Part shown: positions 45,751-47,028 of the stretch, piece after piece
Layout: each line of letters begins with the position of its first letter
Numbering within the stretch: position 1 is the stretch's first letter
NCBI GenBank assembly: GCA_019054805.1
Contig: JAHQIY010000006.1
Coordinates: 5,394,001-5,458,000, forward strand
Direction: 5' to 3'
Source: Brachionus manjavacas
Lineage: Eukaryota > Rotifera > Eurotatoria > Ploima > Brachionidae
Length of the DNA: 64,000 nt
Program-made: the position numbers and the translations under genes
The notes under the pieces: generated by a model
Seen by the model: the letters and a program-made list of their open reading frames with translations, nothing else
The model's database searches: none
Told to the model about the DNA's origin: nothing

Positions 45751-45832
45751 ATTGTAAGAACGTAAGAATCTAAATTTACCACTTTGGACGCTTGTTCAGA
45801 GTGGTAAATTTAGATTCTTACGTTCTTACAAT
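45751..45832. repeat. perfect 32-bp inverted repeat with 18-nt loop
   Basis: Bases 45751-45782 (starting ATTGTAAGAACGTAAGAATC) are the exact reverse complement of 45801-45832. The 18-base spacer is TTTGGACGCTTGTTCAGA. It directly abuts the degraded LINE. It could be a young fold-back element, an inverted duplication, or a structured RNA/recombination site. Confidence 0.9.
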
Positions 45833-46541: not shown

Positions 46542-46954
46542 TTATTTTTTTCCAGGAACACCCCAAACACCTTGCAAGCCACTTGCAAACATATTTCGGT
46601 TTAGTCTTTTGCGCTTCATAATATTATATGGTTTTTCAAATGAGTCGAAATTGAAAAATGATCTCTTCTCTGGATCAAATTCTTTTGGATACGAGTCATG
46701 ATTCAGTTCATTTAGTTGGAATAATTTGTCCAATATTGGCCTAAGCTTAATATACTTTTCTCTTAGATTATCAATCTTGGACTCCATCAACGAATCCTGT
46801 ATTTCATTTGGTAAATTGTCTCGAAATTGGTCTTCTGTCAAACAGTATACCTGTGCAAAATATTAAATTTTTTATCAAATCTTTATTAAAAATGGACTAA
46901 GCTTACTTTAGTCAAAACTAACAAAACAACTACTAGTTTCAAAATTGGATTCAT
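46542..46954 (-). CDS. probable neuropeptide precursor with a C-terminal amidated peptide
   Basis: Two exons, 46907-46954 and 46542-46850, 118 residues. Exon 1 encodes only a signal peptide (MNPILKLVVVLLVLTK; cleavage probably after VYC or VYCLT). An acidic spacer follows (about residues 20-75). Then DPEKR and SFFNFDSFEKPYNIM, a KRKR processing site, and LNRNMFASGLQGVWGVPGKK as the final residues before the stop. Family knowledge: prohormone convertases cut after dibasic sites, and Gly before KK is turned into a C-terminal amide, so a mature peptide ending -GVWGVP-amide is predicted. A -P-amide end is shared with calcitonin/DH31-type hormones, but the rest does not match them. The splitting of the signal peptide onto its own exon is typical of peptide hormone genes. 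A TATA-like box lies upstream. The architecture is convincing; the family is unknown. Confidence 0.7.
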
Positions 46955-47020
46955 TTTAAGAAAACCCCAATATTCTTTTTTAATTTTTAATTTTGATGCC
47001 AAAATGGTAGTCTTTGCCTT

Positions 47021-47028
47021 ATTTATAT
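47021..47028 (-). promoter_or_regulatory. TATA-like box of the peptide precursor gene
   Basis: On the minus strand ATATAAAT lies about 70 bp before the ATG at 46954, at a plausible distance for transcription start. In an AT-rich genome chance matches are frequent. Confidence 0.4.

Follow-up and report, generated by a model that had tools for sequence, protein, structure and literature searches.

Amidated precursors of Spiralia follow a general plan of a signal peptide, dibasic sites and an amidation glycine. Calcitonin precursors have a layout and length like those of the rotifer precursor described below. The DH31 core, SGxxxAKxxMGLAAA, is devoid of Cys. PSLamide, HFAamide and QSGamide are amidated spiralian peptides, and many peptides of this type are without a known receptor (PMC8557429). 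According to the text of the same article, very few precursors were identified in a study of three bdelloids, and an in-depth survey of the Gnathifera, which lack deeper sampling, was called "the next frontier" (PMC8557429). Among rotifers, an APGW/AKH precursor has been reported in Brachionus plicatilis (PMC10730642), an EP/CCHamide has been described (PMC6617912), and FCAP, FMRFamide and RYamide precursors were listed for a set of taxa including Rotifera (PMC6425005). The accessible portions of PMC5818035 and PMC7251081 contain nothing on rotifer peptides of a comparable kind.

The window, i.e., the whole stretch of Brachionus manjavacas DNA that was analysed (64,000 nt; contig JAHQIY010000006.1), carries on its minus strand a gene of two exons coding for a 118-residue protein, including a C-terminal GKK, and then a stop codon (Table 1). 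A preliminary description made from the letters alone had proposed this two-exon gene and its 118-residue product; its coordinates proved to be exact, with the strand (minus) left unstated. The C-terminal end of the protein reads ...EKRSFFNFDSFEKPYNIMKRKRLNRNMFASGLQGVWGVPGKK-stop. The UTRs implied by the TATA box and the AATAAA signal (5', ca. 40 nt; 3', ca. 90-110 nt) are close to the means of 52 nt (5') and 94 nt (3') for B. plicatilis transcripts (PMC1925144). Trans-splicing was dismissed, no conserved leader being reported for B. plicatilis in the accessible portion of that article (PMC1925144).

Table 1. Features of the putative prohormone gene (positions in the window; residues of the 118-residue protein).
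Feature	Position	Strand	Residues	Remarks
TATA-type TATAAATA box	47020..47027	-		66-73 nt 5' of ATG; by eye
Exon 1	46907..46954	-	1-16	MNPILKLVVVLLVLTK; signal-peptide n-region and hydrophobic core
Intron	46851..46906	-		56 nt; GT-AG; GTAAGC...TTTTGCACAG (...CACAG); phase 0
Exon 2	46542..46850	-		Remainder of precursor and stop codon
Acidic spacer	46668..46841	-	20-77	Net charge -6
KR cleavage site	46662..46667	-	78-79
Possible second product SFFNFDSFEKPYNIM	46617..46661	-	80-94	Between KR and KRKR
KRKR cleavage site	46605..46616	-	95-98
Predicted mature peptide LNRNMFASGLQGVWGVP-amide	46554..46604	-	99-115	17 residues
G (putative amide donor) and KK, C-terminal	46545..46553	-	116-118
Poly(A) signal AATAAA	46450..46455	-		87 nt 3' of stop

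Hydrophobicity of the signal peptide peaked at 3.48 (residues 7-15) and was followed by a polar chain. By the -3/-1 rule the likely signal-peptidase cut is VYC|LTE, after residue 19, which is coded in exon 2; the signal peptide is thus not wholly on exon 1. It had been described as lying on an exon of its own. The acidic spacer and the KR, KRKR and terminal GKK of that description were all recovered, with the charge and at the residues listed in Table 1. These dibasic sites flank a peptide ending in an amidation Gly, and the secreted part of the precursor is without Cys (none after residue 19). The mature form is probably the 17-residue LNRNMFASGLQGVWGVP-amide, for which a monoisotopic [M+H]+ of 1844.959 ([M+2H]2+ 922.983) was predicted. 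A cut after the internal R-L-N-R would give a shorter, 14-residue form, NMFASGLQGVWGVP-amide (computed m/z 731.369, 2+). The 15-residue SFFNFDSFEKPYNIM, absent from the earlier account, is a possible second product (computed mass value 943.427).

Copper type II monooxygenase domains gave 12 matches in the genome. One of these loci (L008) was identified as PHM by comparison with solved structures, matching peptidylglycine alpha-amidating monooxygenase at 1.4e-24 vs dopamine beta-hydroxylase at 6.5e-6; PHM is the first half of PAM. Another (L006) has an additional domain at its N-terminus and on inspection resembles DBH. A homologue of 7B2/secretogranin V (L041; 106 bits) was the sole match reported in the genome. 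Processing enzymes of the kind expected with a prohormone, PHM and 7B2, are thus present.

The locus is read as a real single-copy gene of a monogonont rotifer for a secreted peptide prohormone that yields LNRNMFASGLQGVWGVP-amide and possibly SFFNFDSFEKPYNIM too, with a probability of roughly 0.72. This reading is favoured because of the exact two-exon model, the rarity of the layout, the UTRs implied by the TATA box and AATAAA, an exon 2 frame that scores, though weakly, as the best of six, the single place returned by searches of the genome, and the presence of PHM and 7B2. If the gene is expressed and its intron spliced as modelled, the chain would enter the secretory pathway via the signal peptide and a prohormone convertase would cut it at KR and KRKR. 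A carboxypeptidase would then trim the terminal KK, and PAM would convert the glycine to the amide. The resulting LNRNMFASGLQGVWGVP-amide, possibly along with SFFNFDSFEKPYNIM, would be released to act as a peptide hormone or neuropeptide, with a GPCR as its probable receptor; neuronal origin, release site and receptor are presumptive parts of this scheme, as are cleavage and amidation. The preliminary description's reading of a secreted, amidated precursor remains the best one for the layout, as predicted from sequence.

The rarity of the layout was estimated by requiring four features together in a model of one or two exons: a start containing a hydrophobic core, a polar body, a dibasic site no more than about 40 residues from the C-terminus, and G[KR][KR] directly before the stop. 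One place in the window, the precursor gene, had this layout, and it was absent from the other loci examined (three loci containing the precursor gene excluded). Markov-simulated windows, a null that is no model of real coding sequence, contained it in 1 of 60 and 2 of 1,500 cases, i.e., 3/1,560. This frequency predicts two or three chance layouts genome-wide (114 Mb), so the layout evidence is good but not final. An open frame due to chance, or a decayed, unexpressed gene, would fit this expectation. It would also fit a simulation of intergenic sequence of the same composition, in which 21 open runs of at least 103 codons arose per 1 Mb simulated, so that the length of the frame by itself means little. 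Codon bias is likewise weak (exon 2, 0.119 bits per codon, best of six frames; exon 1, -0.164; training set judged on itself), and neither frame length nor codon bias was accepted as proof of a gene. Against a chance or decayed frame, the layout occurred in 0 of 1,500 simulated windows once the model had to reach 100 residues, and a TATA box, a short intron with consensus ends and a poly(A) signal are all present; such an origin is judged very improbable. The gene might instead code for a small protein that is secreted constitutively or is antimicrobial, with KR, KRKR and GKK incidental and the C-terminus no regulated signalling peptide; K and R are abundant when coding sequence is AT-rich. 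The placement of the sites is prohormone-like, however, with KRKR directly before the peptide and GKK exactly terminal, and the lack of cysteines in the secreted part also speaks against such a protein. In addition, G[KR][KR] ended only 2 of 836 distinct open runs of at least 60 codons, the precursor gene included (339 kb of window and loci, some overlapping; three loci with the precursor gene omitted). Incidental sites are considered improbable.

The remaining alternative is a divergent calcitonin/DH31-type ligand for the calcitonin-receptor-like class B GPCRs of the genome. The ligand would be the 17-mer or, if KRKR escaped cleavage, a 36-mer (KR|SFF...GVWGVP-amide). In its favour are the G-x-P-amide end and the GKK, the P-amide being predicted from VPGKK-stop, and the similar layout of calcitonin precursors. 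The 17-mer and the 36-mer (KR to P) were locally aligned with seven peptides of the calcitonin, DH31 and CGRP types, and the scores did not exceed those of shuffles in which the terminal PG was retained (36-mer, p 0.15-0.94; 17-mer, p 0.17-0.98). The top score, 22, was with Ciona calcitonin (p 0.15 and 0.24), and human calcitonin aligned as GVWGVPG vs GV-GAPG (p 0.25 and 0.17). A Cys-Cys ring is absent, the DH31 core was not seen by eye in the precursor, and KRKR, which the 36-mer would retain, is normally cut. In the genome, the 7tm_2 profile gave 27 matches, of which four class-B1-like loci were set against solved structures. All four matched the calcitonin receptor best, namely the class B1 receptor L024 (ectodomain, 2.3e-10; TM part, 5.8e-13) and the fragments L028 (3.3e-6), L026 (3.4e-9) and L027 (7.4e-7); this favours a calcitonin-type ligand. 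By position, L024, which has a hormone-receptor ectodomain, and L034 are one gene (G000:C1:2.115 Mb), and L028 and L029 another (C1:2.390 Mb). To our knowledge the PDB holds no invertebrate PDF, DH31 or DH44 receptors, so the best matches do not fix the receptor subtype and cannot separate PDF from DH31 types. Searches for a canonical DH31 gave the following results. The GGPG-basic pattern had 24 matches vs 21 in the control, and the 20 of the 24 that were translated contained no DH31 end by eye, a point for the divergent-ligand alternative. The GxPG-basic pattern had 162 matches vs 278 in the control; 30 were translated, two of them common to the GGPG-basic list. A Drosophila DH31 query, run with no positive control, had no match in the genome. 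Pfam PF00214 also had none, and that search is uninformative because all of the 14 control genomes were blank as well. Since no significant similarity extends beyond the P-amide, and both the Cys pair and the DH31 core are lacking, the sequence does not support membership in the calcitonin/DH31 group. The hint in this direction in the preliminary description failed the alignment test against the PG-keeping shuffles, the P-amide end alone being shared. A calcitonin/DH31-type ligand is accordingly an unlikely identity for the peptide, and a link of GVWGVP-amide to the calcitonin-receptor-like receptors, as judged from these comparisons, is a weak possibility.

Seven other, similar class B-like GPCR genes (L014, L016, L018-L022; open frames of 561-653 aa) were seen in the genome. 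Four of them are located at 2.84-3.77 Mb of contig C3, suggesting an expansion that is in part local.

DNA and protein searches of the rotifer's own genome returned the precursor gene itself only, with no second copy. The W-G-x-P-G-basic DNA pattern had three matches there vs seven in the reversed control, the other two being WGLPGN and a stop. No Pfam family was found at the cut-off; the best match, SARAH, lay in the spacer (E 0.0068; 16.8 bits vs a cut-off of 23.1) and, being sub-threshold, was taken as chance. A phmmer search of the PDB gave nothing below 0.56, and scans of viral contigs and GTDB genomes, both of them microbial or viral sets, gave no relative, a negative of little weight for that reason. 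The spellings GVWGVP, VWGVP, WGVPamide and GVPamide were not found in the main text of 5.39 million open-access papers. The earlier statement that no known peptide family is recognisable agrees with Pfam, the PDB, the own genome and open-access text.

The precursor gene is situated within a gap of about 5.7 kb (gene ends by eye) between MBTPS1 (site-1 protease; 5.1e-94) upstream and MMUT (methylmalonyl-CoA mutase; 2e-116) downstream. Both neighbours are interrupted by short GT-AG introns (by eye). Downstream of the precursor gene there is a near-perfect hairpin with arms of 39 nt at 45751-45789 and 45794-45832, 95% complementary, and a 4-nt loop. At other loci of the genome, six identical-reading GGPGNNIPQRHNVVVLATKP stretches (L054-L059; four minus-strand, two plus-strand) lie within 32 kb of contig C10 and read as an amplified repeat or a gene cluster. 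The open frame of a further locus (L090) is presumably an MLH3 homologue. Of the oligonucleotides published for B. manjavacas mlh3 (PMC10395877), the guide matched exactly at L090 alone, a second place in the genome differing from it by three mismatches. The forward primer and the two arms of the repair template also fit L090 without a mismatch; as one arm overlaps the guide, the four matches are not fully independent. The genome is accordingly that of B. manjavacas or a very close relative.

As judged from its sequence, this is a genuine-looking amidated precursor, unassigned to a family and ordinary in kind. Tentatively, at somewhat less than even odds, GVWGVP-amide may stand for a family so far undescribed, confined to rotifers or gnathiferans and with its own receptor, or for a much-changed ligand of this rotifer's calcitonin-receptor-like GPCRs. 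The preliminary description had gone further and proposed an undescribed signalling system; the peptide does match no family tested, but that claim exceeds the evidence. The gene offers a clean, testable peptide candidate in a poorly surveyed branch, in a species that has candidate class B receptors and in which CRISPR knock-out works (PMC10395877).

Compared with calcitonin/DH31, the rotifer precursor shares the P-amide end, the final G-x-P and the precursor size; it differs in having neither the Cys pair nor the DH31 core, and in carrying KRKR inside the corresponding span. The start of SFFNFDSFEKPYNIM, NFDSFE, is NFDxxE-like and may resemble that of orcokinins. With orcokinin and pedal peptide it would share this start, whereas it is single-copy and without a GFGF-like end. 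Resemblances to tachykinin, GnRH, NKY, leucokinin, AKH and iPTH/PXXXamide were considered against published descriptions alone and were not adopted. In the accessible portions of PMC10730642, PMC6617912 and PMC6425005, none of the published rotifer precursors resembles the GVWGVP-amide precursor. The APGW/AKH precursor as described in PMC10730642 has APGWamide/AKH, absent from the present one, and the EP/CCHamide as described in PMC6617912 is a two-cysteine peptide, unlike anything in the GVWGVP-amide precursor. GVWGVP-amide also fits none of the family names and motifs in sections 5 and 15 of PMC8557429. With the spiralian amidated precursors of unknown receptor, the rotifer precursor shares the general plan.
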